Shown: positions 2,159-35,667, counted from the first letter of the stretch. The stretch: 64,000 bases of DNA from Polyangia bacterium (GCA_036268875.1 DATATI010000079.1:62001-126000); one strand, 5' to 3'. Notes: generated by a model not told the origin, from the sequence alone. Numbers and translations: made by a program.

Positions 2159-3919
2159 CTACAGCGCGACGGCGAATCGGAACAGATACTCTTGCTCGAA
2201 GCGGCTCTTGAGTTTCTGGATGGTCGAGGTGTCGCCGCCGAGGTGGTTCAGAAGATAGTTGAACGTCAGGCGGAACCGCTTCGAGTGCCAGTAATTCACG
2301 CCGAGCTCGTACGAATCAACTTTCGTGGTGCCGGTGACCGGGCTCTTCGTCATCAGTGCCGCGGTGTCGGACGATTCGCTCATGGTCTCGTTCAGGTAAT
2401 CCACCTTGATCGCCAGCTGCAGCCCGTTGACCGGCGCCTTGACGCCGAACTTGCCGATGCGGGTGGGCATCTGCATCCCGGGCTCGCCGATGATGCGGTC
2501 GTCGCCGATGGCCCACAGCCACAGCTCGCCATAGAACGCCGAGCCTTTCAGCGTCGCGCCGCCCAGGACCACGGGCGCGGTGGCGCTGGTGACGTCCATC
2601 GCCGATAGCGGCTGTTTTTTCCAGACGAATTCGAACCGCAAGCCCCATTTGTGGGCCACCGGCGCGTTCAGCTCGGCCGCGAACGCTTGCAGCCGGCCCA
2701 TCTGGTGCAGCTCGATCGGGGTCTTGGTGCCGCTCGCCTGCGTGAAGGTGTACGACGGCTTCAAGAACGTGAACCCGGCCTGCGTGCTTTGCGAGGCGAC
2801 GACGAGTGAGTTGTTGCGGTCGCCGGTCCAGTACGATCCGCCCAGCGTGACCGCCTTCAATTCATCGACCCCGCCCGGCAGCGGCGCCACCCAGGCCCGG
2901 CTGATGAAGTCGAATTGATTGTCGGCGTTGCGAAAGTTCTGTCCGTCGCCGTCGAACACGCCCAGCGAGTAATAAAAATTGCGCTCCGGGTTGGTGCCGT
3001 GGGCCATCGCGCCGACTTCCTTTCCCGACGGGATGCCGAAGGCGCGCACCGGGATCGATTTTTCCATGAAGTCGAGATACTTGTCCGAGGTGCGGTTCTC
3101 GAGCGTGAAGGGCGCGTCGAACTGACCGACCTGCAGGATGAAGAGATCTTTCCAGGGCGCCAGGGCCACGAAATCGTCGGTGGCGTTCAGGTTTGATTGC
3201 GCGATGGGCGCCGCGCCGGCCGGCGCGCCCGAGGCGAAGTCGCCGGCAATGCTGAAGTAGACGAAGGTGCCCACCCAGCCGGTCAATTCAAAACGGGCCC
3301 GGCGCAACAGCAGCGTGTTGAACGGCGTGGTGTTGCTGCTTTTGAAAAAGTAACCGTCGGCCTGCACGCGGCCGCTGGGAAACAAAATGAAAAGATTGTC
3401 CGGCGAGCGCAGGAACGCCGTCTGATTGCTGAAGCCGGCCAGCGGCTCGTCGCCGGCGGTCGGCGCGGGCGGCGGTGGAGGCGGCTCGACGGGCGCGGGT
3501 GGCGTTGGGGGCGGCTCGACGGGCGGCGGCGGCTCGGCGGCTGGTGGCGGGCCGGGCGCTTCGGACGGCGGCGCCGGCTCGGCCTGGTCTTGCCCTTGCG
3601 CGGTGTCGGGCGGCGGCGGGCCAGCTGTGTACGGCAAGATCACCGCCGAGAGGTCGGGCTTCGCCAGCGCGGTGGGCGGCGATCGCCGCGGGGCCGGTGC
3701 CGCGGCCGATTCGTGCTTCGGCCAGACGCGCTTGGGTCGCGGTGGCGGCGGCTCCTCGCCGCGCGCTTGCGCGTGAATGGCGTCCAGGATCGCCTGCGCT
3801 TCGTCCTGTTCCTGGATTTGTTGCGGCAGCTTTTGCGCGTTCGCGGCGCCCACTGGCATCAGCGCAGAGACCAGCAGCGTCAGCGCGAATGGCGTCTTCA
3901 TCGATCGGGTGCGCGACAT
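2159..3919 (-). CDS. Phosphate-selective-type outer membrane porin with Pro-rich N-terminal region
   Basis: Predicted outer-membrane beta-barrel of the OprO/OprP porin family, a channel for anions such as phosphate. The ATG at 3919 was chosen because GGGAG lies 10 nt upstream and an N-terminal signal peptide follows, ending at ANA-QK. The frame is open further upstream without a ribosome site. Residues of about 50-155 are extremely rich in Pro, Ala and Glu (runs such as PPPPPAP), presumably a periplasmic spacer. From about residue 160 the sequence turns barrel-like, with FPSGRVQADGYFF, LLRRARFELTGWVG and many alternating beta-strands, and ends in an aromatic-rich strand. It lies downstream of the PstS-like gene on the same strand, separated from it by a terminator. 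Confidence 0.75.
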   Translation of the reverse strand: MSRTRSMKTPFALTLLVSALMPVGAANAQKLPQQIQEQDEAQAILDAIHAQARGEEPPPPRPKRVWPKHESAAAPAPRRSPPTALAKPDLSAVILPYTAGPPPPDTAQGQDQAEPAPPSEAPGPPPAAEPPPPVEPPPTPPAPVEPPPPPPAPTAGDEPLAGFSNQTAFLRSPDNLFILFPSGRVQADGYFFKSSNTTPFNTLLLRRARFELTGWVGTFVYFSIAGDFASGAPAGAAPIAQSNLNATDDFVALAPWKDLFILQVGQFDAPFTLENRTSDKYLDFMEKSIPVRAFGIPSGKEVGAMAHGTNPERNFYYSLGVFDGDGQNFRNADNQFDFISRAWVAPLPGGVDELKAVTLGGSYWTGDRNNSLVVASQSTQAGFTFLKPSYTFTQASGTKTPIELHQMGRLQAFAAELNAPVAHKWGLRFEFVWKKQPLSAMDVTSATAPVVLGGATLKGSAFYGELWLWAIGDDRIIGEPGMQMPTRIGKFGVKAPVNGLQLAIKVDYLNETMSESSDTAALMTKSPVTGTTKVDSYELGVNYWHSKRFRLTFNYLLNHLGGDTSTIQKLKSRFEQEYLFRFAVAL

Positions 3920-4055
3920 TGGTTTCGGACTCCCATTGGTTCCGGGGCGCCGATCATGCCGACGGAAAAATCGGTCGAGGTGACGATTGGGAAACTCTTT
4001 CGTGGGGTTTTCCATCGGCCCGTCACGCAGCTGTTACCGTCGGCGGCGCGACCCC

Positions 4056-4143: not shown

Positions 4144-5832
4144 CTAGATATTCGGAACCACGCCCGCCGGGTTCGACCCGCAGGCATTGCTGTTGGTCGT
4201 GTAGGTCATGGCCGGGGACACGCAGGTCCTCTCGTCGAAGTCCTGGCAGAAGATACCCCCGGGGACGTCGATGAAGCCATGGCTGGTGATGATCGGGTTG
4301 ACGATCGAGCCGTTGCTCATGCACTTCGCCAGCTCGAGCTCGCCGGTGGCGAGGTTCGGGTCGCCGAAGCCGGCCACGGTGCTGAAGAACAGCTTGCGCG
4401 ACAGTGGGTAGAACGTCGGGTCGCTGGGTGCGGTGACGATCTTCTCGATGTTCGCCTGGCTGTCGGTGATGCCGTTCAGGGTCAGGGCGATGCTGCCCGC
4501 CTGGTTCGCCGCCTCGCGGCCGGCGTAACCCATGCTGCACGGATCAGCCTGCGCCAGGCAGCCGATCTGCGCGGTCGAATCGGTCTGCGTGCAGGTCGCG
4601 GCGCCGGTCGCGATCACCTTGCTGGTGTGGACGCCGTAGAAGGCGCCGGTGATGAAGCGGTTCAGGTTGTCCTTCACGTAAGAACCGTCGGCGTTCTTGA
4701 CGATCAGGTTGTACGCGCGGCCATTCATGCCGTTGGCACCGAAGCCCTGGACCGGCGTCTTGAGGGCGATGCAGTGGGCGTTGAACGCGCCGCCGCCCAG
4801 ATCCTGATAAGGCTGGAAGCACTTGCCGAACAGCAAGCCCAGGCCGTTCGGGCAGGCGGTGATGCCGGTGGTGGCCGGCTTCATCAGCTGGAACTTGCCG
4901 GGGCTGCAGGCCACCGACGAGAACAGCTGGGCGCCCGTCAGGTCGGCCGGAACCTCGACCACCGTGACCAGACCGAGTGTGCCGTCGCGGCTGCAGGCCT
5001 CTTCGTTGTTGTCGCAGGGGCGGCGGATCGGATCCTTGTCCTGATAGTCGTCGTCGCCGGCGAAGATGTTGCCCAGGCCGAAGGCGTTGCAAAAGGCCAC
5101 GCCCTTGGCGACAGCGCCGGGGACGGTCTTCGCCGAGGGGAGACCGGGCAGAGCCAGAAGCGTCAGCAGCGTGTCGCTGGTGCCGGAGAAATCCGAGCGG
5201 CGCCAGGCGTGACGAAGCTGCGTGCAGGTGCTGCCGGTGCAGGACGCCTCGAACAGCGCGCCCCAGTTGTTCACCAGCGAGCGGCGAACGTCGCTGTTGC
5301 AGTCGGTGACGCCCGCGTGGGTCTTGCCGCCGTAGATCAGGGTCAGGACGTCCTTCCAGTCGGTCAGGTGATAGGTGTTCGTGCCGCTGTCGCAGCCGGA
5401 ACAGTTGTTCACCGCGTTGCCGTTGGTGTCGGTGACGGCGAACGAGTGCGTCGACGTGAAGGCCAGACCGCCCCCGCACTTGTTGCCTTCGGAGGCCGAC
5501 GTCACGATGGCGATGCCGTCCAGGCCGACGACGATGGCTTCAGCGGTGGGGCCCTTGGCGCAAACGCCGGTGGTGGGGTTCAAGAAACGAGACATCGGAG
5601 CGACGAACTGCGTGGGCGGGCTCGCCGTCATCGCGTTCTCGCCCGTCGTCGAGCCGCCGCCGTTATAGGTGATGCCGTTCGTCGTCGCGCCCGGGCACTG
5701 AGCCAGGACCGCCTTGGTCACCTCTTCGAGAGTATCCGAACCTTGCAGCGCGACGTTATTGATCGCGCTCGCAGTGGTGGTGAAGCCGACCCCCACCATC
5801 AGGAATGCTGCGCCCAAAATTTTCATTCTCAT
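4144..5832 (-). CDS. Secreted PstS-like substrate-binding protein
   Basis: Predicted periplasmic binding protein of the PBP type II fold, probably for phosphate. GSDTLEEVTKAVL, GGGSTTGENAMTA, IVVGLDGIAIV, DWKDVLTLIYGG and RRSDFSGTSDTLL match the layout of PstS-type phosphate binders (G-S-D/G-T loop, second-lobe S-G-T). At 562 residues it is longer than usual PstS (about 320-380); the extra length lies in Cys-containing insertions between residues 190 and 450. The ATG at 5832 was chosen for GGAGG 8 nt upstream and the signal peptide that follows (cleavage near TASA-IN). No pstC, pstA, pstB or phoU is near, so it may serve sensing or scavenging with the adjacent porin. Phosphate specificity is inferred. 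Confidence 0.65.
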   Translation of the reverse strand: MRMKILGAAFLMVGVGFTTTASAINNVALQGSDTLEEVTKAVLAQCPGATTNGITYNGGGSTTGENAMTASPPTQFVAPMSRFLNPTTGVCAKGPTAEAIVVGLDGIAIVTSASEGNKCGGGLAFTSTHSFAVTDTNGNAVNNCSGCDSGTNTYHLTDWKDVLTLIYGGKTHAGVTDCNSDVRRSLVNNWGALFEASCTGSTCTQLRHAWRRSDFSGTSDTLLTLLALPGLPSAKTVPGAVAKGVAFCNAFGLGNIFAGDDDYQDKDPIRRPCDNNEEACSRDGTLGLVTVVEVPADLTGAQLFSSVACSPGKFQLMKPATTGITACPNGLGLLFGKCFQPYQDLGGGAFNAHCIALKTPVQGFGANGMNGRAYNLIVKNADGSYVKDNLNRFITGAFYGVHTSKVIATGAATCTQTDSTAQIGCLAQADPCSMGYAGREAANQAGSIALTLNGITDSQANIEKIVTAPSDPTFYPLSRKLFFSTVAGFGDPNLATGELELAKCMSNGSIVNPIITSHGFIDVPGGIFCQDFDERTCVSPAMTYTTNSNACGSNPAGVVPNI

Positions 5833-6242
5833 TCTGAAATCCTCCGTTGATTGGTTCCGATCGGTCGCCCGGTGCGAGCGCCGATCTGCCCGCCCGACCG
5901 CCGTAAACAAAGAACGGGCCAAGATCTGGCGGCGTCACCGTGGCAACCACAAGCGCGCCGTATCTGGCGGTTAGAGGAATGCGGCCATCGGATTTCACTC
6001 GTCGATGTGCGTCGGCCTCCTCCAGGAATCGAACGCAGCCCTCCGAAAAGCGGAGAGCGCCGGCGGGTTTTTTGGCTCTGTTTTCCCCGCGCTGCCGCGC
6101 TAGCCCCGAAATTCCACGCTTCTGCGACCGGGTGGCCGCGCAGCGCCATTGGCGCGGACTTTGATATGCGCCCAGCCGTCGCTTGTCGCTCTCGTTCGCG
6201 CGGCGGGTACTCATTTTTCAAAGAACCTCAGGAGGAATTGTG
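5833..6242. promoter_or_regulatory. Divergent intergenic region, 410 bp
   Basis: Separates the PstS-like gene (leftward) from the Cys-rich protein gene (rightward), so it must hold both promoters. I see no gene. Ribosome-binding sites are clear at both ends: GGAGG before 5832 and AGGAGG before 6243. A small hairpin, CTCCG at 6041-6045 with CGGAG at 6051-6055, is followed by a GC palindrome (CGCCGGCG) and six Ts at 6068-6073; this could be a leader hairpin or weak attenuator of the rightward transcript. I did not find a convincing Pho box. Confidence 0.4.
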
Positions 6243-7670
6243 ATGATTCGATCTGCAACCAGTAAAGCCGTGCTTCTGACGGCGACGGTGCTGCTGTCCA
6301 GCACCGCGTTCGTCAACTGTTCCAACACCAAAAACACCTCCAACGCCGTCACCGACACGGGTTCGGTCGGCCTGGCCGTCAAGCTCTCGACGGGCATCAC
6401 CGTCGACAAGGTCAGCTACACGATTTCCGGAAACGGGATCACGCCGGTCACCGGGACCATCCTGACGACGGATCCGGGCGCCACCATCTCGGTGTTGGTG
6501 AACGGTCTGCCGGTCGGAATGGGCTACACCGTCACGCTGTCCGCGACGGGCAGCGACGGCGTGACCACTTGCGGTGGCTCGTCGACCTTCAATGTCGTCG
6601 CCAACCAGACCAGCTCGGTGACGGTGGCTCTGCAGTGCATGGCGCCGAAGACGACCGGCTCGGTCGGTGTGACCGGCACCCTCAACAACTGCCCGACCCT
6701 GACCTCGTACACCGCGGCTCCGCTGGCGATCTCCACCGGTGGCGTTATCACGGTGGGCGCGACGGCCAGCGATCTGGACGCCGGCGACATGCTGACCTTC
6801 GCCTGGACGGCGACGGGTGGCTCGTTCGTCGCCGCCGGTTCGGCCAGCACCGGCTTTAACTGCACCACGCCGGGCGCGCAGACCCTGACCATCACGGTCT
6901 CCGACGGTCACTGCACCGACAACGCCACCATCGCGGTGACCTGCGTGGCCTTGGCCTGCGGCAACGGCACGCTGGATCCGGGCGAGCAGTGCGATCCGCC
7001 CAGCGCGGCCAACCACTGCGATGCCAACTGCCAGACCATTCCGGTGTGCGGGAACAGCGTGGTCGAAAAGGGTGAGCAGTGCGATCCGCCGAACGGCACC
7101 ACCTGCAGCGCCACTTGCCAGGGGATTCCGATCGTCTGCGGCAACGGCATCGTCCAGCCGGGCGAGACCTGCGATCCGCCGAATGGCACCACCTGCGACG
7201 CCACCTGCCACAGCCAGGTTGCTCCCACCTGTGGTGACGGCATCGTCAACCAGCCGAGCGAGCAGTGCGACCCGCCGAACACCATGACCTGCGATGCGAA
7301 CTGCCAGACGATCGATCTCTGCGCCAAGTGTGAAGCTGTGCAGTGCGATCCGACGATCGCGGGCTGCGGTTCGCTGACGGGCGCCGATCAGACCGCCTGC
7401 CTGGCGCTGGTGGCCTGCATTCGTATGACCGGCTGCTCGAAGGCCGGTGACGCTCAGCCCTGCTACTGCGGCACCGCGTCCGATATCGCCTGCCTCTCTG
7501 GCTCGGCGAACGGCGCTTGCAAGGCGCAGGTCGAGGCGGCCGCCAAGTCGACCGACGCCGGTACCATCGCCAACGAGTTCGTGGATCCGACCTTCCCGGT
7601 CGGCCTGGCCACCAACCTGATCGGCTGCGACGCCACGTCGTCGTGCGCGCCGCCGGTGTGCAAGCTGTAA
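6243..7670 (+). CDS. Secreted Cys-rich protein: PKD-like domain, four myxobacterial disulfide repeats, C-terminal Cys module
   Basis: Function unknown; a cell-surface or secreted protein. The ATG at 6243 has AGGAGG just upstream. An N-terminal export signal reaches Cys26 (STAFVNC), a poor lipobox, so lipidation is uncertain. Residues 40-135 look like a beta-sandwich. Residues 140-235 form a PKD/Ig-like domain (LTFAWTATGGSF, LTITVSDGHC) that is closely repeated in the next gene. Residues 238-355 hold four copies of the CGNG-x-PGE-x-CDPP-x-C-x-C disulfide repeat of myxobacterial surface proteins. Residues 360-473 form a Cys-rich module with a PCYCG core that recurs twice in the protein encoded at 12.3-14.6 kb. 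A strong terminator follows. Confidence 0.85.
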   Translation: MIRSATSKAVLLTATVLLSSTAFVNCSNTKNTSNAVTDTGSVGLAVKLSTGITVDKVSYTISGNGITPVTGTILTTDPGATISVLVNGLPVGMGYTVTLSATGSDGVTTCGGSSTFNVVANQTSSVTVALQCMAPKTTGSVGVTGTLNNCPTLTSYTAAPLAISTGGVITVGATASDLDAGDMLTFAWTATGGSFVAAGSASTGFNCTTPGAQTLTITVSDGHCTDNATIAVTCVALACGNGTLDPGEQCDPPSAANHCDANCQTIPVCGNSVVEKGEQCDPPNGTTCSATCQGIPIVCGNGIVQPGETCDPPNGTTCDATCHSQVAPTCGDGIVNQPSEQCDPPNTMTCDANCQTIDLCAKCEAVQCDPTIAGCGSLTGADQTACLALVACIRMTGCSKAGDAQPCYCGTASDIACLSGSANGACKAQVEAAAKSTDAGTIANEFVDPTFPVGLATNLIGCDATSSCAPPVCKL

Positions 7671-7690
7671 CACCGGTTGATGCTCGCTGC

Positions 7691-7712
7691 GCGGGAGGGC
7701 TCACCCTCCCGC
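7691..7712. other. Perfect 9-bp GC hairpin without U-tract
   Basis: GCGGGAGGG and CCCTCCCGC flank a 4-nt loop 20 nt after the Cys-rich gene. There is no T-run, so it probably stabilises the transcript 3' end or assists the terminator 40 nt downstream. Confidence 0.5.
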
Positions 7713-7752
7713 GTCGGTGAGCGAAAGATGGTGGCGGGAAGTGGGTGAGGGG

Positions 7753-7790
7753 ACGGGCGCTGGGTGAATAACCTGGCGCCCGTTTTTTTT
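7753..7790 (+). terminator. Rho-independent terminator
   Basis: ACGGGCGC (7753-7760) pairs with GCGCCCGT (7776-7783) around a 15-nt loop, followed by a run of eight Ts (7783-7790). It ends the transcript of the Cys-rich gene, yet sits immediately before the ribosome site of the next lipoprotein gene. That gene must be read by read-through or has its own promoter. Confidence 0.85.
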
Positions 7791-7798
7791 GAGAGGTG

Positions 7799-8365
7799 AT
7801 GAACGTGTGGTCCGATAGTCGCGCCGTGAAGATCGGGCTGGCCGTGCTGCTGCTGGGTTGGTCGGCCGCGAGCTGCGACAGCAACCACTGCGGCATCGCC
7901 GCGGCGACCATCGACGACGCCGGCACCGGCAGTGGCGTGGGTGACGGCGCCATCGAAAGGACGTCGGTGACGTTGCCGGAAGCAGGCGCCGAGACCAGCG
8001 ACAGCGCCGGCGCGCAAGACGTCAGCGTGGGCGTGGCGGACGCCAAAGGCGACGGTTCAATTTCCGTGATGGGCACGTTCAACAACTGCCCGAACATCGT
8101 CGCGGCCACGGCGTCACCGCCGCAGGCCACCGTCGGCGAGATGATCTCAGTTGCCGTTACTGCCAGCGATCAAGACCTCGGCGATCATTTGACGTACGCG
8201 TGGACCGCATTGGGCGGCTCGTTCCCTATGCCCTCCGCCGCCCGCACGGCTTACACCTGCACCGAGCAGGGCATGTGGCAGCTGACCGTCAAAGTCTCCG
8301 ACGGCCAGTGCACGCAGACCGTCACCGTGATGGTCTCCTGCGGAGCCGCCGGCGCGCCGGGCTGA
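7799..8365 (+). CDS. Lipoprotein with one PKD/Ig-like domain
   Basis: Predicted surface lipoprotein of 188 residues, function unknown. A hydrophobic N-terminus ends WSAASC, a plausible lipobox. An Asp/Ala/Gly-rich spacer follows (about residues 30-85), then a PKD-like domain: MGTFNNCPNIV, LTYAWTALGGSF, LTVKVSDGQCTQ. This domain matches residues 140-235 of the protein encoded just upstream, including both Cys positions, so the two arose by domain duplication or share one module. The start is ambiguous: GTG 7796 overlaps the GAGAGG ribosome site, ATG 7799 is 3 nt from it and GTG 7805 about 9 nt. A 12-nt palindrome, CCGGCGCGCCGG, sits at the 3' end (8349-8360). Confidence 0.75.
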   Translation: MNVWSDSRAVKIGLAVLLLGWSAASCDSNHCGIAAATIDDAGTGSGVGDGAIERTSVTLPEAGAETSDSAGAQDVSVGVADAKGDGSISVMGTFNNCPNIVAATASPPQATVGEMISVAVTASDQDLGDHLTYAWTALGGSFPMPSAARTAYTCTEQGMWQLTVKVSDGQCTQTVTVMVSCGAAGAPG

Positions 8366-8405
8366 CACGCGGGCCGTGGCCAGCTTGGCGTCGATTCGGG
8401 CCCGT

Positions 8406-11400
8406 TCAGTTCTTGGGCAGCAGCTCGCAGTGGTTGTATGGGGTCTTGGCCGCGGTCGGGTCCGCCTCCAGTTTCTTCAGATAAAGGAAGACCGCCACGC
8501 CGGCGTTGACCGCACCCCGCGTGGCCCAAGCGTCCGCGTCCGTGAAGGTATAGCGGTTGTCCTGGTCCTCCGTCGCGACCAGTTGCGAGGACGACGCCGT
8601 TATCACTTGGTCCGGGCAGTACGGCATCTTGACCTTGCCCGGGCCCACCGGGTGCGCGCTCAGCAACGCCTCGGCGGCGGCCAGATCGGCCGCGCCGCTG
8701 GGCTTTTGCACGCAGACCGGAAACACGTTGTCCGCGGTCAGGCCCATCTTCAGCTCGCCACGCTGGTTCAACACCGGCGCGTCCAACGGGTAGGCGTCGC
8801 CCCAGTAGAAACTTTGCGTTGGTCTTATCTCCAGCCCGCCGGCCGTGCCCGTGCTGTTGATCCAGAGGCCACCTTTGGGTTGCAGAACCCGCACCACCTG
8901 GCGGTTGCCCAGGCTGCACAGTTGCTGCCACATCTCGGCGTCCCCGTTTGACCCGATGAGGGCCGTGTTCGCGCCCCACTCGATATAGCCGCGCGGGAAG
9001 GCGTAGTCCGCGTCGAAGGGGATCGTCGTGTTCTGGTCAATCAAGGGAAGAACCTGGGCGCACAGATTCTGCGCCAGCTTGAGCATGTTGGCGGAAGTCG
9101 ACGGAACCGACTGCTGTCCGCGCGAAACGCCGAGAATCCTCGTCGTGCTGACGATGTTCAAGATGGCGTCGGGAATGGTGACGGCCGTGCCCCCCAGCGC
9201 CATCCAGGACACATAGCGGGCGGCCCAGTCGTCGGCGCTCAATCCATTCGTCAGGAGATCGGGCGTGCCGAAGACGCGCATCCGATTCGCTCCTGGCATG
9301 TCGGCCGGCCCCAAGAACCCGTCGCGGAAGTTGGCCACCCGCGCTGTGCCGCCGGTCATGTTCATCAGCGCGTCGGCCATCAACCCTTTCGAGTCCGCTT
9401 GCGGGCCGTGGCAGTTGATGCAGATGTTGTTAAAGACGGCGGCGCCCGGCGACATCATGTAGACCGCGCCGTTCGGATCGGGCAGGTTCGTCGGGTCGGC
9501 GTTCATCCAGCGCGGGCGCGGCGCGCTGACGTTGTCGAAGGACGAGACCTTCGGGAATGGCGATAGATCGCAGTTCGGCTTTCCCTGCCACACCCCGTAC
9601 GGCAGATCGGTCAGGGCGAATGTCCGCATTTGATCCGTGATGGTCGCCCCGTGAACCGCGGCCTGCGCATTGGCGCGGGCCCTCACCTCGTCGGCGCGGG
9701 CGTCCGGGCTGCTGACGGGCGGCAGGTTGGTGGTGTTGGCTTGCGACATCACGATGTAATTGACCCAATCGACGCGCCGCGGATTCCAGTCGCCCGGTGG
9801 ATCGGTGGTATCCGTGATCACCCAGTGCGCCCGAACCGGAACGCCGACGCCGGGCTGCAGAAGCTTGGTCGGATCCGTCGGATCGTAGACGTCGTCAGCG
9901 ACGGGAACGATGGGCAGCGCGCCCCCGGCCTTGATGACCGCCGGGTCGACGATGTCTGACTGATCGGGACAGAATTTGTATCGACCGCCGGTCTGGTATT
10001 CCGTCACGCGCTTGTTGGCGGCCGCCACGGCGTCGTTGTATCCGTCGTCGCCAGGATGGACCTCGACGTAGGGTTGCGGGTTGGTGTCGACGGCGACAGC
10101 GGTGTCGTTGCCGTTGATCTTCTTCGTCTCGCCCGGCACCGCATCCTCGTCGATCTCCGGATTCTTGCGCACCGCCGGGATGCTGGCCATCCATGAGCCC
10201 ATGATCCGCGGCGTCCGGCAGTCGAACCCCGGCGAGTTCATCGGCATGTGCGGGAAGACGACGTAGTCGTCGGCGTACATGAACGGCGTGTCGACGTTGC
10301 GATAGAGCAAGCTGCGCCAGGGCGCCGGCAGATGGCCGGGTCCGTCGTCGGTGCGACCGTCGCAGACGAACTGGGCAAACGCGTCGTCGCTGTTCGAGCA
10401 GTGCGGGACCCACTTTAGCGTCCAAATGTTGCTGCTGGCGCCGGGCGGTTCGTAGTTGTACGACGCCACCGGATATTCGCGCAGCGACGGGGTCAGGTAC
10501 GGCAGGGGAATCTCTTGCTGGCTGCCGCGCGCGCGCAGCGGGCTGACGGTGGTCAGCGGGAACTGGAATACGCCGCCGCCGCTGGGCGACGGCATGAAGT
10601 CCAGCGTGTCTTTCAGATCGGGGTTCTTGATCGACGGATAACCGCGCGGGTTGTGGCAGTGGGCGCAGTTGCCCAGCATGTACGCCTGGGCCGCCAACTC
10701 GTAGTCATTGCGAGGCGTCTTCGATCCTTCCGATTGTTCCAGCGGCAACACGTCGGTCGGGACCATGCCGCCGATGACGCCGTAGTCGATCAGGCGCTGC
10801 AGTTGGTCCAGCTCGTCGGGGCCGGTGTCCTCGTAGGCACCGCCGGTTCCGGATGGGCGGCGAGCGATCTGCAGCGGCAGGAAACCCAGGATAAAGTCTT
10901 CGTTCACGCTGCCCATGTGGCACTGGATGCAGCGCTGGCCGCCCGGCACGGCATAGTGTCGCTTCAGGCTGGGCTGCGCGTTGTCGAGGGCGTACGAAAG
11001 ATTCGCCGGCATGCTGTCGCGAATCATCTGCTCGCGCGGCTCGTCGACGGTGATGCTGAGCAGCGTGTCCGTGAACGGCTCGCCGTTGCGCAGCGGCAGG
11101 CTGGTCTTCACCGCCTTGGTCTCGTCTTCGTTCCAAAGATAAGTCCCGTACAAAGCGGTGGGCTGGGTGGTGCCGTCGGCCATCGTTTGATCGAGCCGCG
11201 CCACGATCACGCGCGTCTCGATCTTGCGGAAGGTCTGGTTGCCGTCGCGATCGATGACCTGCCGCATGAACGTCTTGTAAAAGCGCGTGTTCGGCGGAAT
11301 CTTGAACTTCTGGGCCGTCTTGTCGAAGGTGATCGACTGTCCCTTCGGCACCCGCACATAGCGCAGCTTGCCCGCGCCGTCGGTCCACAATGGATACTGC

Positions 11401-12194
11401 GGCACGTATGCGATGACGCCGTTGTGCGCAAGCTGGGCGGTGTCCAGCGTCGTGAGGTCGGTGTCTTCCAGGTTGTCGGGCAAGTCGGTCATCGCCGCGA
11501 ACGCCTGATCAATTTTGTCCATCGTATCGGTGCTGGTGCCGACCATGGCCGCGCCCGGAACGCAGCTGCCAATGTCCGTCATGTGAGTGCCGACGTCCGG
11601 CGACAGCAGGTACGGACTGGCGTTGCTGTCGCTGCCGCCGCTGTCCGCGTCCGAACCTGATGGATCGCTGACGGTGAACAGCTCGTCGGGGCGGCCTTGC
11701 GCGATCCATTGCGAAAGCAGATTCGCCAGGATGACGATCGGATCGGTCGCCGCGCGCTGCGAGAATCCCTTGCTCTGCGGCGGCATCGCCTTTGTCGGAT
11801 CGTCGGACTGGATCTGCGCCAGTACGGTTTGATCGACCACCGTCGAAAACGTCTTCGGCGTGAAGGTGAAGTTGCCCAGGTTCACCGGCGACAGGTGGCA
11901 TCCACCGCAGTCGGCCTTGACCAGATTGAAGAGATCTTCGGTGTACATCGTGTTGCCGCCGTTGCCGGCGGCGGCCGATTCGCCCGCGATGGCGTTCACG
12001 CGCGCGGGCAGCGCCTCGGCGGCACGGGCGGGCATGCACAGCGCGGACTTCGTCGGCATCGGGCTGGTCATCCCAGCGTCGGGACGCCAGTCCCAGTTCT
12101 GCGTGCTATCGGGTCCCCCGGGTGCGCTGCAGCCGATAGCCGTGGCCATTCCAAGCCACAACAAAGGTTGCGTTCGTCGGGCTGGCTTGGCCAT
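8406..12194 (-). CDS. Very large c-type cytochrome lipoprotein with four CxxCH motifs
   Basis: 1262 residues, exported; the N-terminus ends MATAIGC, a plausible lipobox at Cys22. Four heme-attachment motifs are visible: CGGCH 96-100, CIQCH 422-426, CAHCH 510-514 and CINCH 925-929. Residues of about 255-480 (VPQYPLWTDGAGKLRYV, FKIPPNTRFYKTF, YLWNEDET) resemble a family of conserved periplasmic cytochrome-like proteins in which a beta-rich domain precedes a heme motif; I cannot name the function. The hemes are widely spaced, unlike packed multiheme electron wires, which suggests several mono-heme domains in one chain. It stands alone, with converging and same-strand lipoprotein genes around it. 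A role in periplasmic or surface redox chemistry is inferred. Confidence 0.85.
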   Translation of the reverse strand: MAKPARRTQPLLWLGMATAIGCSAPGGPDSTQNWDWRPDAGMTSPMPTKSALCMPARAAEALPARVNAIAGESAAAGNGGNTMYTEDLFNLVKADCGGCHLSPVNLGNFTFTPKTFSTVVDQTVLAQIQSDDPTKAMPPQSKGFSQRAATDPIVILANLLSQWIAQGRPDELFTVSDPSGSDADSGGSDSNASPYLLSPDVGTHMTDIGSCVPGAAMVGTSTDTMDKIDQAFAAMTDLPDNLEDTDLTTLDTAQLAHNGVIAYVPQYPLWTDGAGKLRYVRVPKGQSITFDKTAQKFKIPPNTRFYKTFMRQVIDRDGNQTFRKIETRVIVARLDQTMADGTTQPTALYGTYLWNEDETKAVKTSLPLRNGEPFTDTLLSITVDEPREQMIRDSMPANLSYALDNAQPSLKRHYAVPGGQRCIQCHMGSVNEDFILGFLPLQIARRPSGTGGAYEDTGPDELDQLQRLIDYGVIGGMVPTDVLPLEQSEGSKTPRNDYELAAQAYMLGNCAHCHNPRGYPSIKNPDLKDTLDFMPSPSGGGVFQFPLTTVSPLRARGSQQEIPLPYLTPSLREYPVASYNYEPPGASSNIWTLKWVPHCSNSDDAFAQFVCDGRTDDGPGHLPAPWRSLLYRNVDTPFMYADDYVVFPHMPMNSPGFDCRTPRIMGSWMASIPAVRKNPEIDEDAVPGETKKINGNDTAVAVDTNPQPYVEVHPGDDGYNDAVAAANKRVTEYQTGGRYKFCPDQSDIVDPAVIKAGGALPIVPVADDVYDPTDPTKLLQPGVGVPVRAHWVITDTTDPPGDWNPRRVDWVNYIVMSQANTTNLPPVSSPDARADEVRARANAQAAVHGATITDQMRTFALTDLPYGVWQGKPNCDLSPFPKVSSFDNVSAPRPRWMNADPTNLPDPNGAVYMMSPGAAVFNNICINCHGPQADSKGLMADALMNMTGGTARVANFRDGFLGPADMPGANRMRVFGTPDLLTNGLSADDWAARYVSWMALGGTAVTIPDAILNIVSTTRILGVSRGQQSVPSTSANMLKLAQNLCAQVLPLIDQNTTIPFDADYAFPRGYIEWGANTALIGSNGDAEMWQQLCSLGNRQVVRVLQPKGGLWINSTGTAGGLEIRPTQSFYWGDAYPLDAPVLNQRGELKMGLTADNVFPVCVQKPSGAADLAAAEALLSAHPVGPGKVKMPYCPDQVITASSSQLVATEDQDNRYTFTDADAWATRGAVNAGVAVFLYLKKLEADPTAAKTPYNHCELLPKN

Positions 12195-12308
12195 GGCTTC
12201 CTTTTTCTGGCGCGGGCGCGTCGGCCGCAGTGGACCTTTATCACGTGACGTTGGGTGCGTCTGTGACAGTTCGGCGACCGGTTGCCAGGCGGTCAGGGGC
12301 GCCGCTGA

Positions 12309-14609
12309 TCAGGGAGCAATCTTCAACAGCACGTTGTCGAACTGCGCCCCGAACGCTGCGCTGCGGAACGTCTTCATCACCACCAGCCGCAAACTCATCG
12401 ACGCCGCACCCGCAGGCGGCATCAGCGTTCCGGTCAGCCGCTTCCACACGTTCGTATCGCCGAGCTGACTGCCGCTGTCGCTCCCGTTGATCGCGCCCGA
12501 ACAATCCGTCGAGGAATAATAGAACGCGCCGTATCCGGCGCTGCCCACGCCCTGTCCGCCAGTGATGAACACCTGCAGATCCAGCAGGTACTTCGTTCCC
12601 GCCGTCACCGGCAGGCATTGATCGGAAGCGGTGAGGACCATCCCGTCCTCTTCGGCCACGTTGGCGTTGGTGACGGCCAGCGAACCCGAACCAGCCTGGC
12701 CAGAGCCGTCCTTGTCGCTGCGCGACTGCACCGCCTTGAACTCCGCTGTCCAGTGGCTGGCATCGCTATCGAATCCAGAGTTCGCCACCAACGTCTCGTG
12801 GCAATCAGGGACGTTGTTGCTGTCGAGGTCGGGGCAAACACCAACGAGGGGGGAGCCGCCGGTGCCGGGCGCGCCGCCAGTTCCCGCGACGCCGCCGCTG
12901 CCGATCATCCCGCCGGTTCCCGCGCCCCCGCTGCCGTCACCGCCCGAACCCGATGCGCCGCCGGTGCCCGATGCGCCACCGACACCACCGGTGCCGGATG
13001 TACCGCCGCTGCCGGACGTGCCGCCGGTGCCGCTGGTTCCGCCGGTGCCGCCCGCTGGATCGCCGCTCGTGCAAACCCCGTCGCATGACGGAGGCGGCGA
13101 CGGCATCGGATCATGATCGCAGCCGAACAGCGCGAAGGCGGCCGTGACGGCGTAGATCGTCGGCGAAGGCGAAGACGGATCGGGCGTGAATCGCATGGCG
13201 ATGTCAGCGCCGCTCGTCGACTCGGCGGCGGCTTCCATCTCGGCTTTGCAAACGCCGTCGGCGTGTCCGGTCAGGCAGGCGATGTCAGCGGCGGTTCCGC
13301 AATAACACGGTTGCATGTCGGCGTCGGCGCCGCTTTTTCCGCAGCCGGTGCGACGGATGCAGGCCATCAGGTTCAGGCACAGATCTTTGCGCGCCTGACC
13401 CATCGCCGGACCGTCGGTGGCGTTGCCGGTGGCTTGTTCGCAGGCTGCCAGCGAATCCGGGCAGGTTCGCGTCTCGCACGCACGGCACATGCTGTACGTG
13501 ACGGTGCCGCCCGAAGTGCCGCCAGTTCCCGTCGACGAATCACCGCCGGTGCCGCCAGATGTTCCACCGCTGCCGGTGCCGCCGCCGGTGCCGCTGCCGG
13601 TGCCTCCGGTGCCGCGGTTTGTGCCCCCGGTGCCGTTGATTGCGCCGCCGGTGCCGCTGCTTGCGCCGCCGGTGCCCGAGCTGCCGCCGGTGCCCGAGCT
13701 GCCGCCGCTGCCCGACGCTCCGCCGGATCCATTCGCGCTTGCGCCGCCGCTGCCAGAGCCGCCGCTCGTTCCTCCCGAGCTTGCCCCAAACGTCCCGCCA
13801 GCACCCGAGTGGTCGCCGTCGCCGCCAGGGATCGTCAGGCACGACGTCCGGCAGAACGTCGAATCACAATCCTGGATCAGATCAACGGCCGCGCCGACGG
13901 CGAAGGTGGGATCGACCAAACGAGACGCGATGTCGCCGGGGTCGCTGGACTCGCTGGCGTTCTCGATCGCCGTCTTGCAGACGCCGTTCGCCTTGCCGGA
14001 CAGACAGTCGAGATCGCCCACGCCGGGCCCGCAGTAACAAGGTTCGACCTGGAAAGGCGTGCCCGCGTAGCAGCGGTTTTGCCGGGCGCAGTCCAGGACG
14101 GCTTGGCAGAGGTCCGTCTTGTTCTTGCCCTTCGCCGGCCCATCTAGGGCGGTGGCTGGCGAGTCCGGCACGTACATCGTCGGCGTGTAGCACGCGCTGT
14201 ACGAATCGAGATCCAGGCTGCGGCAGTACTTGTTTTCGCAGGCGGCGCAGTCGGCGGCGTTGAAGACCAGCGGCGCCCCACCGGTGTTGCCGGTGCCGGT
14301 GTTGCCGGTGCCGGTGTTGCCGCCCCCGCCGGTGTTGCCACCGCCGCCGGTGAGCGGGCGGTCGGTTCCAGCGGGGGCGTCCTGGGCGTCGCTGGTGGTG
14401 GCAGGACCGTCGGCTTTGGCGTCGGTCTTCGGCGCGTCTTTGGCGGCGTCGCCCGCTGACGCGCCGGCATCGTCGGACATGACGTCGATGTTGCCGAACG
14501 GACCGCCGCTGGATCGTGGAGGAGTGATTGAGTCGTCGGCGCAGCCGGCCGCCGCGCCCAGACTCATCAACAGCGCCGCCCAGGTTCTCTTTGACCGCGT
14601 TCGAGACAT
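12309..14609 (-). CDS. GTGG-repeat lipoprotein with two Cys-rich modules and a C-terminal carbohydrate-binding-like domain
   Basis: 766 residues, function unknown, predicted at the cell surface. The ATG at 14609 was chosen for GAGGGAG 4 nt upstream and the lipobox AAAGC (Cys23); the frame is open further upstream without these. Layout: Asp/Ala-rich and Gly-Asn-Thr spacer (24-115); Cys-rich module A (121-257); Gly/Ser/Thr linker of GTGG repeats (262-370); Cys-rich module B (375-513); a second GTGG linker (517-587); then a C-terminal beta-sandwich of about 160 residues (NSGFDSDASHW, SLAVTN, FDNVLLKI) resembling CBM4/9-type carbohydrate-binding domains. Modules A and B match the C-terminal module of the protein encoded at 6243-7670. 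Confidence 0.85.
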   Translation of the reverse strand: MSRTRSKRTWAALLMSLGAAAGCADDSITPPRSSGGPFGNIDVMSDDAGASAGDAAKDAPKTDAKADGPATTSDAQDAPAGTDRPLTGGGGNTGGGGNTGTGNTGTGNTGGAPLVFNAADCAACENKYCRSLDLDSYSACYTPTMYVPDSPATALDGPAKGKNKTDLCQAVLDCARQNRCYAGTPFQVEPCYCGPGVGDLDCLSGKANGVCKTAIENASESSDPGDIASRLVDPTFAVGAAVDLIQDCDSTFCRTSCLTIPGGDGDHSGAGGTFGASSGGTSGGSGSGGASANGSGGASGSGGSSGTGGSSGTGGASSGTGGAINGTGGTNRGTGGTGSGTGGGTGSGGTSGGTGGDSSTGTGGTSGGTVTYSMCRACETRTCPDSLAACEQATGNATDGPAMGQARKDLCLNLMACIRRTGCGKSGADADMQPCYCGTAADIACLTGHADGVCKAEMEAAAESTSGADIAMRFTPDPSSPSPTIYAVTAAFALFGCDHDPMPSPPPSCDGVCTSGDPAGGTGGTSGTGGTSGSGGTSGTGGVGGASGTGGASGSGGDGSGGAGTGGMIGSGGVAGTGGAPGTGGSPLVGVCPDLDSNNVPDCHETLVANSGFDSDASHWTAEFKAVQSRSDKDGSGQAGSGSLAVTNANVAEEDGMVLTASDQCLPVTAGTKYLLDLQVFITGGQGVGSAGYGAFYYSSTDCSGAINGSDSGSQLGDTNVWKRLTGTLMPPAGAASMSLRLVVMKTFRSAAFGAQFDNVLLKIAP
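12853..13062 (-). repeat. Low-complexity coding repeat (GTGG linker 2)
   Basis: Tandem imperfect 9- and 12-base units seen as GCCGGTGCC and CCGCCG on the plus strand, encoding GTGG/SGTGG. They lie inside the lipoprotein gene and are prone to slippage. Confidence 0.8.
13500..13800 (-). repeat. Low-complexity coding repeat (GTGG linker 1)
   Basis: About 300 bases of imperfect GGx-type codon repeats encoding Gly/Ser/Thr between Cys-rich modules A and B. A third shorter patch (about 14275-14360) encodes NTGTG repeats near the N-terminus. Confidence 0.8.
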
Positions 14610-14860: not shown

Positions 14861-15784
14861 ATGCGTCTCAAGATGGAAACAGTTTTGCGCGGGACGGGGT
14901 CAGCGGCGGTGGGGATGGCGTTGCTGTTGGTGGTGCCGCGGGTCAGCGCGGGGGCTGAGCCGCCGCCGGCGGACCCATTCGCACACCACCAGTTCGCCCT
15001 GAACGAAGCCGATCCCGTCTCTAGCGTGCCTTCGGAAGAAAACCGCAACGCGCACCCGCTGCAATTCGGTTATTTTTTGCAGGACCTGCTCGACCACGGG
15101 CAGGTGGCGGTGAAGGCCGGCAACACCACTGCGGCGCTGCGCTATTACCAGGCGGTTTCGAAGGCGGTGCCGGATCGCGCGGTGGGCTTTTCGCGCCTTG
15201 GTCAGCTCTTGGAAAAAACCAATCAGCCGGCGGCGGCGATCGTCGCCTGTCGCACGGCCATCGGCTTGCTTGGCGTCACCGTCGACGATTACACCCGGTT
15301 TGTACGGCTGGTGGTGGGGGCGCCCGGCGCGTTGGCGCCCCATGACGCCGTTGACGTCAAGGCGGTGATCGCGCATCTGCGCGCCCAGAGCGAGGTCAAT
15401 AAAACGCTGCCCGATGAATTGCAGTGCGAGCTGGCCACGCGCCAGGGCGACACGGCTAGCCTGGAAACCTGCACCGCCGCTCTGGCAGCCGCGGCGCCCA
15501 ACGACGCCCGGACCATCTCGTATCAATGGGCACTGGCGATACAGAAAGGCGACAGCGGCGAGGCGCGTCAGATCATTCGAAAGGCGATCGACAGCGGAAT
15601 GGCGCCGGGCGCGGTCAAGCTCATGACCGAGCAGACCGACGCGCGTTTCTGGCGCTGGTCGCAGCGTTTCCGTGACTGGCAGTTCTCTGCGCCATTGCTG
15701 GTGGCGGTGCTCGCGGCGGCGGCTTCCGTGATCGCCGTGGCGCGCCGTCGCCGGCTGGCCCGCCAGAACGCCGTCCAAACTTAA
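14861..15784 (+). CDS. Exported TPR-like protein with C-terminal membrane anchor
   Basis: 307 residues, function unknown. A signal peptide (ALLLVVPRVSAGA) precedes a helical region with TPR-like helix pairs (DHGQVAVKAGNTTAALRYYQ, RLGQLLEKTNQPAAAIVACR). After residue 275 a single hydrophobic helix (APLLVAVLAAAASVIAVA) is followed by RRRRLARQ, so the protein is probably periplasmic and held in the inner membrane by its C-terminus. ATG codons at 14861 and 14873 are both possible. It ends 16 bases from the converging sigma-54 activator gene. A role as an assembly or scaffold protein is a guess from the TPR-like pattern. Confidence 0.7.
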   Translation: MRLKMETVLRGTGSAAVGMALLLVVPRVSAGAEPPPADPFAHHQFALNEADPVSSVPSEENRNAHPLQFGYFLQDLLDHGQVAVKAGNTTAALRYYQAVSKAVPDRAVGFSRLGQLLEKTNQPAAAIVACRTAIGLLGVTVDDYTRFVRLVVGAPGALAPHDAVDVKAVIAHLRAQSEVNKTLPDELQCELATRQGDTASLETCTAALAAAAPNDARTISYQWALAIQKGDSGEARQIIRKAIDSGMAPGAVKLMTEQTDARFWRWSQRFRDWQFSAPLLVAVLAAAASVIAVARRRRLARQNAVQT

Positions 15785-15800: not shown

Positions 15801-16865
15801 CTACGACAGGCTGTACTTCTTCAACTTCTCGTACAGCGTGGAGGCCGCGATGCCCAGCATGCGGGCGGCGTGAACCTTGTTTCCCCGGGTCAGCACCAGC
15901 GTCTGTTTGATCGCTGACTGCTCGACGCTGGCCAGGGTGTGGCCGCCCAGGGGCAAGCGATCCAGCAGCGAGTGATCGCCGGCCGAGGCCACAAAGCGCA
16001 GGTGCGTCGGCTCCAGCACGCCGGCGTCGACGAAGGCCAGGGCGCACGCCAGCACGTTCTTGAGCTCGCGTACGTTGCCCGGCCACGGATGAGCCCGCAA
16101 AAGCTCGAAGGCTGCATCCGAGACCGTGACATCGGGGCGACCCAGATCGGCCAGCAGGCGCGGCACCAGCAGCGGGATGTCGTCGCGCCGTTCACGCAAA
16201 GGCGGCAGCTGCACCACCGCCGCCGCCAGCCGGAAATAAAGATCCTGCCGGAAGGTTCGGTTGGCCACCAGCGCCGCCAAATCACGATTGGTGGCGGCGA
16301 CGATGCGCAGATCCACGCGACAGTCGCGCGTGCCGCCCACCCGGCGAATCGACCGACTCTCCAGCGCGCGCAGCAGGCGCGGCTGCAGATCCAGGGGCAA
16401 TTCACCGATCTCGTCCAGGAACAGGGTGCCGCCGCGCGCCCGCTCGAATGCGCCGGCGTGTTCGGCGTGGGCGCCGGTGAAGGCGCCGCGTTCGTGCCCG
16501 AACAACTCGGTCTCGACCAGGTTGGCGGCCACGGCGCCGCAATCGAAGACCACAAAGGGACCAGCGGCGCGGGAGCTGGCGTCGTGGACGGCGTGCGCCA
16601 CCACGTCTTTGCCGGTGCCGGTCTCGCCGATCACTGTCAACGTGATGTCGGTGGGCGCCAGGCGTCGCATCACGGCGAACACTTCATTCATGGTGGGCGC
16701 CGCCGCCACCAGGCTGCCGAAGGCATGCGCGCCAGGACCAGCCGGCATGGCTGGTGTGGCGATGCGGGCGCGCGTCGGAGGGATCGCTTGATCCTCGTCG
16801 TCCGGTGGGCCGGTAAGTGCGCTGATTCTTTCGGGGGCGGTGAAGTACGAGGAGGTGGCTGTCAC
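15801..16865 (-). CDS. Sigma-54-dependent transcriptional activator (AAA+ and Fis HTH, no sensor domain)
   Basis: 354-residue enhancer-binding protein that uses ATP to open sigma-54 promoters. A short, unstructured N-terminus of about 50 residues carries no receiver, GAF, PAS or FHA domain. The AAA+ core has Walker A GETGTGKD, the sigma-54 contact loop GAFTGA, Walker B GGTLFLDEIGEL and an arginine-finger region (FRQDLYFRL, LPPLRER). The C-terminus is a Fis-type helix-turn-helix (NKVHAARMLGIAASTLYEKLKKY). Lacking a sensor, it is probably controlled by its level, a partner protein or directly. The GTG start at 16865 has no clear ribosome site. It is divergent from the heme lipoprotein/barrel operon across a dyad-rich intergenic region and may control it. 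Confidence 0.9.
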   Translation of the reverse strand: MTATSSYFTAPERISALTGPPDDEDQAIPPTRARIATPAMPAGPGAHAFGSLVAAAPTMNEVFAVMRRLAPTDITLTVIGETGTGKDVVAHAVHDASSRAAGPFVVFDCGAVAANLVETELFGHERGAFTGAHAEHAGAFERARGGTLFLDEIGELPLDLQPRLLRALESRSIRRVGGTRDCRVDLRIVAATNRDLAALVANRTFRQDLYFRLAAAVVQLPPLRERRDDIPLLVPRLLADLGRPDVTVSDAAFELLRAHPWPGNVRELKNVLACALAFVDAGVLEPTHLRFVASAGDHSLLDRLPLGGHTLASVEQSAIKQTLVLTRGNKVHAARMLGIAASTLYEKLKKYSLS

Positions 16866-17108: not shown

Positions 17109-17798
17109 GTGACCACCAGATATCACTCGCTGCGCAGGGTTGCTGGCGCGATGGCGGTCGCTGCCTTTGCGTGTTTGATGGTGCCCGGGTGTGGGGACAC
17201 CGTCGATCATCGGCCGGCGGCGTGGGAGTACATCTCGCCCGCGATCATGCAGCCGAACTGCGCCACCACCAGCTGCCACAGCCAGGCCGCGGCGGTGTCC
17301 GGTCTGGATTTCTCCACGCCCGATCACGGATACACCAGCTTGACCGGCCTGTGGGTTTGGATCGTCGATCCGAACGGCACGGCCGCGCAAGGTTGCCGCC
17401 CGTATGGAAATGAATTCGTCTGCCAGCGCAATCATCGGCCGCTGGTGACGGCATACGATCCGGCGCAATCGCGGCTGGTACAGACGCTGCGCGCGACGGG
17501 CGCGCCGCGCATGCCGCCCGATCGCCCGCTGCCGGAGGCGGACATCGCCCTCATCGAAAAATGGATCCTGGACGGCGCGCGCAAGAGCCTCAACGACACC
17601 GGACGCGACGCCACCGTGCCTGTCGACAGCGCAGCAGACGGCGGCGCCGGCGACGGGGCGGCGTCGGACGCGGAAGACGGCACGGACGCTGCCGGTGGCG
17701 ACGGCGCGAAGACGGACGGCAGCGGTTCGGACAGCGCCGGCAGCGAAGGCGGCGCTGAAGAACCCCAACCCGCCGACGCGGCGGCGGAGACGGGCTGA
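17109..17798 (+). CDS. Lipoprotein with CX4CH heme-type motif
   Basis: 229 residues. A hydrophobic leader ends LMVPGC (lipobox, Cys28). The motif CATTSCH (CX4CH) lies near residue 51, a spacing known for some c-type hemes; MPPDRPL further on could supply a distal Met, and IEKWILDGA is typical of cytochrome-like lipoproteins with a closing helix. Residues from about 165 are an Asp/Ala/Gly/Ser-rich tail of the kind that tethers surface lipoproteins. First gene of a three-gene unit; one base separates its stop from the next ATG. Electron transfer at the outer membrane is inferred from the motif and partners. The GTG start lacks a strong ribosome site. Confidence 0.75.
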   Translation: MTTRYHSLRRVAGAMAVAAFACLMVPGCGDTVDHRPAAWEYISPAIMQPNCATTSCHSQAAAVSGLDFSTPDHGYTSLTGLWVWIVDPNGTAAQGCRPYGNEFVCQRNHRPLVTAYDPAQSRLVQTLRATGAPRMPPDRPLPEADIALIEKWILDGARKSLNDTGRDATVPVDSAADGGAGDGAASDAEDGTDAAGGDGAKTDGSGSDSAGSEGGAEEPQPADAAAETG

Positions 17799-26503: not shown

Positions 26504-26519
26504 CGGCACGTTGCTTGCT
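26504..26519 (+). promoter_or_regulatory. Sigma-54 (-24/-12) promoter of the respiratory cluster
   Basis: CGGCACG (26504-26510), N4, TTGCT (26515-26519) matches the consensus TGGCACG-N4-TTGCW except for the first base. The GG and GC doublets are exactly 10 bases apart as required. Transcription would start near 26530, ahead of the AAGGAGG ribosome site at 26563. The adjacent FHA-type activator is the obvious candidate regulator. Confidence 0.7.
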
Positions 26520-26574
26520 GGATGCTTGGGCGATCGCTTCCCCCCGGTCTGGCACCGTCAACAAGGAGGACGTC

Positions 26575-27300
26575 ACGTCTCGCGCGGTTTCACCTTCGGT
26601 CGTTTCACTGTTTGTGCTCTTCACGCTGGCGTCTGTCGTAATCAATCGTACGGCTGGTGCGGTAGAGACGATCGAAGCGAAAAAAATTTTCAACCAACGT
26701 TGCTCCGCCTGCCACAGCTTTGGCCGCGGTGTGAAAGTAGGGCCCGATCTGAAAGGGGTCACGCAACGGCGAGGGCGCCCCTGGTTGCTGCGCTTCATTC
26801 GATCCTCGCAGAGTGTGATTCGCGGCGGCGACACCATCGCGCAAACGTTGTTTGCGAAATTCAAACAACAGCGGATGCCGGATTGGTCCGATCTTTCCGA
26901 GCGGCAAATTACAGGGATCCTGGATTGGTTCGCCGGCAATGGTCCCGAACAGAAGGAACCGGACGAGCGCGCCGCCGAGCTGGCCACCGCCGCCGATGTC
27001 GATCGGGCGCGCCGGCTGTTCGAGGGCAGCGAACCGCTGACCTATGGAGGAACGGCCTGCGGCGCCTGCCACGTGGTGGAAGAGCGCGGCGTCCGCACCG
27101 GCGGCACCCTGGGCCCCGAGCTAACCGACACGTACCGGCGCTTCGGCGATCGCGCGTTGACGTTGTTTTTGAAACGTCCCTGCGCCGGCCGCGCGCCGGA
27201 GAGTGAGTCCGCGCATTACCTGGCCCCGGAAGAATCGTTCGCCATCAAGGGATACCTGCGGCGCGTGGCGATCGATGAAAGCGAAGGAGAGAACCCGTGA
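26575..27300 (+). CDS. Diheme c-type cytochrome, probable ACG start
   Basis: Exported cytochrome with two heme motifs: CSACH, about 30 residues into the mature protein, and CGACH, about 115 residues later. MPDWSDL and YLAPEESFAIKGYL could supply distal ligands. It is the first gene of the alternative complex III unit and its stop overlaps the next GTG (GTGA). The start is unusual. AAGGAGG at 26563-26569 is followed at ideal spacing by an in-frame ACG (26575), after which a clean signal peptide runs (VVSLFVLFTLASVV to AGA). The nearest upstream start, TTG 26515, lies inside the sigma-54 promoter, and the next downstream GTG (26614) has no ribosome site. Confidence 0.75.
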   Translation, partial: TSRAVSPSVVSLFVLFTLASVVINRTAGAVETIEAKKIFNQRCSACHSFGRGVKVGPDLKGVTQRRGRPWLLRFIRSSQSVIRGGDTIAQTLFAKFKQQRMPDWSDLSERQITGILDWFAGNGPEQKEPDERAAELATAADVDRARRLFEGSEPLTYGGTACGACHVVEERGVRTGGTLGPELTDTYRRFGDRALTLFLKRPCAGRAPESESAHYLAPEESFAIKGYLRRVAIDESEGENP

Positions 27301-28220: not shown

Positions 28221-28228
28221 AAGCACCC

Positions 28229-28804
28229 GTGCGGTTCCCCGCGGTATTGCTCAGCGTGGCGGGCCTGGCGCTCGGGACGCGACTGGTCTACTCGGACGTT
28301 TCGCGCCTGGGCGTTCACCAAGGCTATGAACCCGAGCAGCCGATCGCGTTTCCCCATCGCGTGCACGCCGGCGACAACAAGATCGCCTGCCTTTACTGTC
28401 ACTCGGGCGCGCGCACCAGCCGCCACGCCGGCATTCCGTCGGCCAGCGTCTGCATGAATTGCCACAATCTCCTGGAGAAGCAGACCACCGAGATCGAAAA
28501 GCTGAAAGAGTCGGTGCAGCTGGGTCGACCCATTGCCTGGGTCAAGGTGCACAATCTGCCCGACTACGTCTATTTCAACCACAGTCAGCACGTGGTTTCC
28601 GGCGTGGCCTGCCGGCGCTGCCACGGCGCCGTCGAACAGATGAATCGCGTCGCCCAGGTGGCGCCGCTGACCATGGGTTTCTGCCTCGACTGTCATCGCA
28701 GCAACGCGCACTTGCCCGGGTCGGGTTTTGAACGCGCGGTGCAGGGTCTGGGCGAGCGCCCGAAACCGACGGCGGGGCTGGACTGCGCCAGCTGCCACTA
28801 CTGA
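28229..28804 (+). CDS. actA: Alternative complex III subunit ActA, pentaheme cytochrome c
   Basis: 191 residues. An N-terminal hydrophobic anchor precedes five CxxCH motifs at residues 54-58, 75-79, 128-132, 152-156 and 186-190, the last ending one residue before the C-terminus. PIAFPHRVHAGDNKIACLYCHSG and VYFNHSQHV carry the His-rich segments that provide distal ligands in ActA. ActA passes electrons from the iron-sulfur and quinol subunits out to cytochrome c. GTG start eight bases after the NarI-like stop; the gene is followed after 11 bases by actB. Confidence 0.92.
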   Translation: MRFPAVLLSVAGLALGTRLVYSDVSRLGVHQGYEPEQPIAFPHRVHAGDNKIACLYCHSGARTSRHAGIPSASVCMNCHNLLEKQTTEIEKLKESVQLGRPIAWVKVHNLPDYVYFNHSQHVVSGVACRRCHGAVEQMNRVAQVAPLTMGFCLDCHRSNAHLPGSGFERAVQGLGERPKPTAGLDCASCHY

Positions 28805-28815
28805 GCGGAGAGGGA

Positions 28816-35641: not shown

Positions 35642-35667
35642 CAGAAAACAGTAACAGGAGACGGCCG

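Follow-up and report, generated by a model that had tools for sequence, protein, structure and literature searches.

A fourteen-cysteine module of predicted surface lipoproteins linked to a tetraheme cytochrome locus in uncultured myxobacteria

The Cys-rich module and the proteins that carry it

The window analysed here, a stretch of 64,000 nucleotides from an uncultured myxobacterium (Polyangia bacterium, GCA_036268875.1 DATATI010000079.1:62001-126000), encodes a cysteine-rich (Cys-rich) module that is present three times in two neighbouring proteins, P0001 and P0002. These copies, which a preliminary description of the window had placed correctly to within a few bases, stand on both sides of a gene coding for a tetraheme lipoprotein cytochrome. 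This linkage, together with the near-exclusive co-occurrence of the module with the cytochrome locus, is the strongest clue to its role, and it had been missed in that description. The features concerned are the following:

6243-7670, + strand: P0001, a putative lipoprotein composed of a PKD/Ig-like part, four myxo_disulf repeats (TIGR02232) and then module 1
7317 to about 7667, + strand: Cys module 1, residues 359-473 of P0001, its C-terminal domain
8406-12194, - strand: tetraheme lipoprotein cytochrome of 1,262 residues, with CxxCH motifs at residues 96, 422, 510 and 925 and an SO2930-family domain
12309-14609, - strand: P0002, a lipoprotein in which modules 2 and 3 are accompanied by Gly-rich linkers and by a C-terminal domain (12309-12833) that is a CBM_4_9-like jelly-roll candidate
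13071-13490, - strand: Cys module 3, residues 374-513 of P0002, its second module
13839-14252, - strand: Cys module 2, residues 120-257 of P0002, its first module

In the multiple alignment modules 2 and 3 share 45% and 53% identity with module 1, and 37 columns are invariant in all three copies, while BLASTP of P0001 against P0002 gives 46% identity over the module regions (E = 3e-26 and 2e-17). The module profile gives about 51-105 bits for complete real copies and at most 10.5 bits for 1,020 shuffled modules, so that, at the level of sequence, the homology of the three modules is beyond doubt. A scan of genome contigs with the module itself as query gave no confirmed match, and the cytochrome was then taken as bait. 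The window's own genome contains only the three copies, and a total of 34 distinct ones could be collected from relatives belonging to several families of one myxobacterial class; among the genomes searched, the module was found in myxobacterial ones only, as had been presumed.

The motif string by which the module was originally recognised is present, but it undercounts the cysteines, since 14 of them are constant over the 34 modules. Short-spaced C-x2-C and C-x-C pairs occur in nearly all copies, and the alignment of the relatives' copies contains no invariant His, Met, Asp or Glu. In the copies of one clade (L063), C35 and C69 have been lost together, suggesting from the sequences that these two residues pair with each other. 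This joint loss, the even number of cysteines and the predicted extracytoplasmic location lead us to infer up to seven disulfides per module, with which the constancy of the cysteines also fits. AlphaFold2, run on module 1 with 17 sequences, predicts a confident all-helical domain of eight helices (pLDDT 88.2, pTM 0.82).

No Pfam or NCBIfam model covers the module (no Pfam-A score exceeds its curated cut-off), no PDB chain matches it by sequence, and Foldseek of the predicted model gave zero PDB matches at E <= 10, although this program is weak for small disulfide-rich domains, and noise only against viral structures. The preliminary description was therefore right in not assigning the module to a named domain, and the missing fold match is compatible with a new fold, as far as the model can tell. 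The myxo_disulf repeats (TIGR02232), DUF4215 (PF13948) and the Cys-rich repeats of TraA (TIGR04201) are, like the module, myxobacterial, extracellular and disulfide-rich, and often belong to the same proteins. However, TIGR02232 and DUF4215 are repeats of about 40 residues, whereas the module is a single helical domain of 115-160 residues and 14 cysteines that matches none of these models. The possibility that it is a variant of myxo_disulf_rpt was rejected, because the repeat model matches 0 of 17 modules; in P0001 its four matched stretches, of which the best covers residues 328-351, lie upstream of module 1. The module thus defines a domain family that has no name so far and is sharply marked in its genomic distribution. 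A further protein of the window with 22 cysteines (61849-62808) shows a sub-threshold match to PF00526, a Dictyostelium Cys-rich repeat, and none to the module profile.

The module ends 12 or fewer residues from the C-terminus in 28 of 33 module proteins, and the N-terminal parts that precede it vary, comprising PKD/Ig-like parts, myxo_disulf repeats, other Cys-rich repeats, EGF-like parts or Gly-rich linkers. Many of these proteins have a lipobox-like site near the N-terminus and, because of this, most of them are probably outer-membrane or surface lipoproteins. In the window, a good lipobox is predicted for P0002 (LGAAAGC) and a weaker one for P0001 (AFVNC), and modules 2 and 3 are bordered by Gly-rich linkers with long GGTSGTGG stretches, so the proposed tie to surface lipoproteins and such linkers holds as a prediction. 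Module genes outnumber the cytochrome severalfold, many genomes containing 3-10 copies of the module. The locus is greatly expanded in G588:C255 (the same contig as L063 and L142), where about nine copies stand on a single contig with a cytochrome and several PstS-like genes.

Co-occurrence with the long-form cytochrome

In a census of the class covering 318 genomes, the module was found in all 15 genomes with a full-length cytochrome and in 6 of the 303 others (Fisher p ~3e-21, uncorrected for kinship, so that independence among related genomes is overstated). Absences in the large surveys are soft, because the scoring covered only some of each genome's candidates. Two genomes with a partial-length cytochrome (G580 and G585) were without the module and, when they are counted as full-length, p is still ~4e-19; the seven short-form cytochrome genomes of the census all lack it. 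The same association is found in each of five families (f1, f6, f11, f19 and f74), and within one genus (g2 of family f1) one genome, G011, lacks both module and cytochrome while two genomes have both. Among 39 relatives the cytochrome is present in six genomes, the same six that carry the module according to the more sensitive profile, and in the window's own family both are found in the same 6 of 18 genomes. Module and cytochrome share a contig in 10 of the 15 genomes and are usually no more than 7 kb apart, the nearest module being 27 bp to 3.6 kb away, and in two genomes (G001 and G002) their genes are on the same strand and nearly overlap.

With the cytochrome as bait, 26 loci were obtained from named genomes; most were titled Myxococcales or named myxobacteria, the others being Bdellovibrio-type genomes, metagenome-assembled genomes (MAGs) labelled only Proteobacteria and one MAG labelled Luteimonas. 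In these genomes, 11 of the 12 with the long cytochrome had the module and none of the 11 with a short one, and looser hidden Markov model searches for divergent modules at the short-form loci found nothing convincing. In Sorangium, Pyxidicoccus, Myxococcus and Bdellovibrio (L068, L071, L075 and L078) a PstS-like gene and that of a shorter SO2930-like tetraheme cytochrome are neighbours, forming a conserved pair without modules. Because of this occurrence, the PstS-like/short cytochrome pair may be an older core, on which uncultured groups would have elaborated by adding the long cytochrome and the Cys modules. The titles of the MAGs place several of these groups in samples from fen, palsa and Chersky.

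Like the diheme cytochromes of the SO2930 family (TIGR03806), the cytochrome of the window contains an SO2930 domain, but it is tetraheme, has about 1,260 residues and carries a C-terminal segment that is not in the short forms. Its score with the family model (E 2.4e-26, 92.7 bits) is under the cut-off of 313 bits, indicating a related but divergent protein. The additional segment (residues 1111-1203) contains two extra cysteines, 1161 and 1193, both of which are present in 14 of 14 long and 0 of 11 short forms, and a contact with the module would be sought there first.

Other genes of the locus

Around the two module proteins and the cytochrome, the window contains these further genes:

2159-4015, - strand: porin of the Porin O/P family (Pfam PF07396, E 1.6e-16)
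4144-5922, - strand: Cys-rich PstS-like protein (PBP superfamily), in which the R-x-S-D-x-S-G-T motif, as read from the sequence, is kept
7796-8365, + strand: small PKD-domain lipoprotein that resembles the PKD part of P0001 homologues
14861-15784, + strand: TPR protein, a homologue of which recurs at module loci
15801-16865, - strand: sigma-54-dependent regulator, a homologue of which adjoins the G001 locus
17109-17798, + strand: lipoprotein with a haem-like C-x4-CH motif (CATTSCH), a homologue of which adjoins modules in G001:C285, G003:C336 and G007:C442
17695-18975, + strand: fused monoheme cytochrome-porin with an N-terminal CNQCH and a 16-stranded outer-membrane barrel, a homologue of which adjoins modules

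Homologues of the PstS-like protein also recur at module loci. One contig, G001:C79, holds homologues of nearly all the locus genes, and two or more of them stand beside modules in G002, G003:C290, G008:C202, L056, L060, L063 and L144, the smaller contigs with modules having one each. The PstS-like protein of the window gives a partial match to TIGR02136 (E 1.6e-5, 24 bits, with a cut-off of 206.6), and the PstS-like neighbours of short-form cytochromes match PF12849 above its cut-off.

The true start of the cytochrome-porin is probably a downstream ATG near 17800. Its AlphaFold2 model has 16 strands (mean pLDDT 65.6), and Foldseek relates the barrel to chitoporin, OmpT, OprP and OprO (E 1e-12 to 1e-9). 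It shares with Cyc2 a single N-terminal CxxCH (here CNQCH) followed by a 16-stranded porin; however, the diagnostic motif of Cyc2, AXPXFAR[Q/K][T/Y] upstream of CxxCH (PMC8406198), is absent from the window copy, which reads AYPQWQLLS, and for this reason the protein is not called Cyc2. According to the model its architecture is Cyc2-like, which does not imply iron oxidation. Homologues are found in Myxococcota and Bdellovibrionota, and a Bdellovibrionales copy (L074) reads AFPEFARHG, a near match to the motif.

At other module or cytochrome loci, the proteins L050:3340-4968 (in G298) and L143:5109-6911 (in G405), encoded beside module genes, combine four CxxCH motifs with a cytochrome c554-like domain at the C-terminus; the N-terminal part of the former looks metallophosphatase-like by eye. 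A signal peptidase I homologue (PF10502; L039:5191-6297) lies directly downstream of a cytochrome gene, and in L053, too, the cytochrome is followed by a similar gene.

Possible role of the module

It is well supported that the module belongs, as a structural domain, to a conserved surface cytochrome locus. Computation supports the homology of the modules, their 14 cysteines and predicted fold, the linkage and co-occurrence, the haem motifs and the porin barrel; surface location, disulfides, electron transfer and docking are inferences. We tentatively favour, at somewhat less than an even chance, that it is a disulfide-locked, all-helical extracellular domain that belongs to an outer-surface redox locus and is restricted to some uncultured Myxococcota, most likely serving as a docking or scaffold element for lipoproteins. 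In this view, surface lipoproteins that otherwise vary have the module in common, usually at the C-terminus, and the redox locus would comprise the tetraheme SO2930-like cytochrome, the PstS-like protein, the TPR protein, the C-x4-CH cytochrome lipoprotein and the fused cytochrome-porin. Lipoproteins with Ig/PKD, Cys-repeat or carbohydrate-binding-like parts could then be held at the cell surface by their modules, on a cytochrome or PstS-like complex that they share. One cytochrome is accompanied by several module genes, whose products vary in front of a constant C-terminal module, and this arrangement is consistent with docking on a common partner. Dockerin-type domains of cellulosomes offer a functional analogy, being small constant domains on varied surface proteins, several per genome, with one linked partner, but no match to them in sequence or fold was found, and the partner of the module is putative. 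A more specific version, that a dedicated docking domain loads variable lipoproteins onto a cytochrome conduit made of the tetraheme lipoprotein and the cytochrome-porin, in a modular redox layer of a kind not described, is doubtful.

Several observations weigh against docking on the cytochrome. The short forms make up one clade in the tree, so that the contrast between long and short forms amounts to about one evolutionary event. The module is present without the long cytochrome in six genomes, of which four belong to family f19, and the cytochrome therefore is not an obligatory partner; at least in one such genome (G286:C786) a PstS-like gene adjoins the module, suggesting that the PstS-like protein could be an alternative partner. 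In addition, the module is internal or short of the C-terminus in 5 of 33 proteins, more than 240 residues following it in P0002, its G001 homologue and L144.

The original proposal of an adhesion or binding module finds its sole hint of adhesion in the C-terminal domain of P0002, whose match to CBM_4_9 (E 8e-4, 20.3 bits) lies under the Pfam cut-off of 25.9 and outside the modules. A domain that serves adhesion or binds a ligand (a glycan, for instance), and whose proximity to the cytochrome would reflect a general island of cell-surface genes, would also suit the Ig/PKD, EGF-like and Cys-rich repeat partner domains, the last of which form the proposed stalk of TraA, a recognition receptor of myxobacteria (PMC3325183). 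This explanation deserves consideration but is unlikely, since no binding domain was matched by sequence or fold and a general surface island would not predict the distribution found in the census with one particular cytochrome. The C-terminal position and the sharing of the module by many different proteins recall MYXO-CTERM (TIGR03901), also a C-terminal element in different myxobacterial surface proteins, and the module could be a functional analogue of it, that is, a sorting or surface-anchoring tag. We regard this as improbable, because the module folds into a domain (about 115-160 residues) and has neither a transmembrane stretch nor an Arg tail, the proteins end in Cys-rich soluble segments, internal copies and long C-terminal extensions exist, and many module proteins already have a lipobox.

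The tight association with a redox locus and the C-x2-C and C-x-C pairs would also be expected if the cysteines bound metal or underwent thiol-disulfide exchange, the module itself being an electron carrier or thiol switch. The module, however, contains no CxxCH and no invariant His or Met, its cysteines are even in number and all or nearly all conserved, and C35 and C69 are lost as a pair, as would be expected of a structural disulfide, all of which makes such a role quite improbable. Weaker still, and very improbable, is that the whole locus serves phosphate acquisition induced by phosphate starvation, with the module in a surface capture layer. The conserved motif of the PstS-like protein and the Porin O/P neighbour point in that direction, as do the genes for a response regulator, a histidine kinase and an ordinary PstS that adjoin a single locus, G008:C202; but Pho-box-like sites in the window do not exceed chance (1 found, 2.4 expected), the PstB genes found sit on contigs other than the module loci, and the haem proteins would be left unexplained.

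If the docking interpretation is true, uncultured myxobacteria from peat, permafrost and soil would build an undescribed modular redox surface layer. The locus is a candidate for extracellular electron transfer in Myxococcota. Searches of the literature on PstS with multiheme cytochromes in Myxococcota, on SO2930 and on porin-cytochrome systems turned up no account of the locus and nearly nothing on this combination. The small size of the domain and the short list of partners make the docking idea directly testable.

Elsewhere in the window, separate genes for a LigD-type ligase and polymerase, recognised by eye, face each other at 18-2147 and, with a Ku-like protein (57468-58394, also by eye) 55 kb from the LigD-type genes, are likely to form a non-homologous end-joining set. 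The region 26515-38433, which encodes multihaem and other proteins, has by eye the look of an alternative complex III operon.

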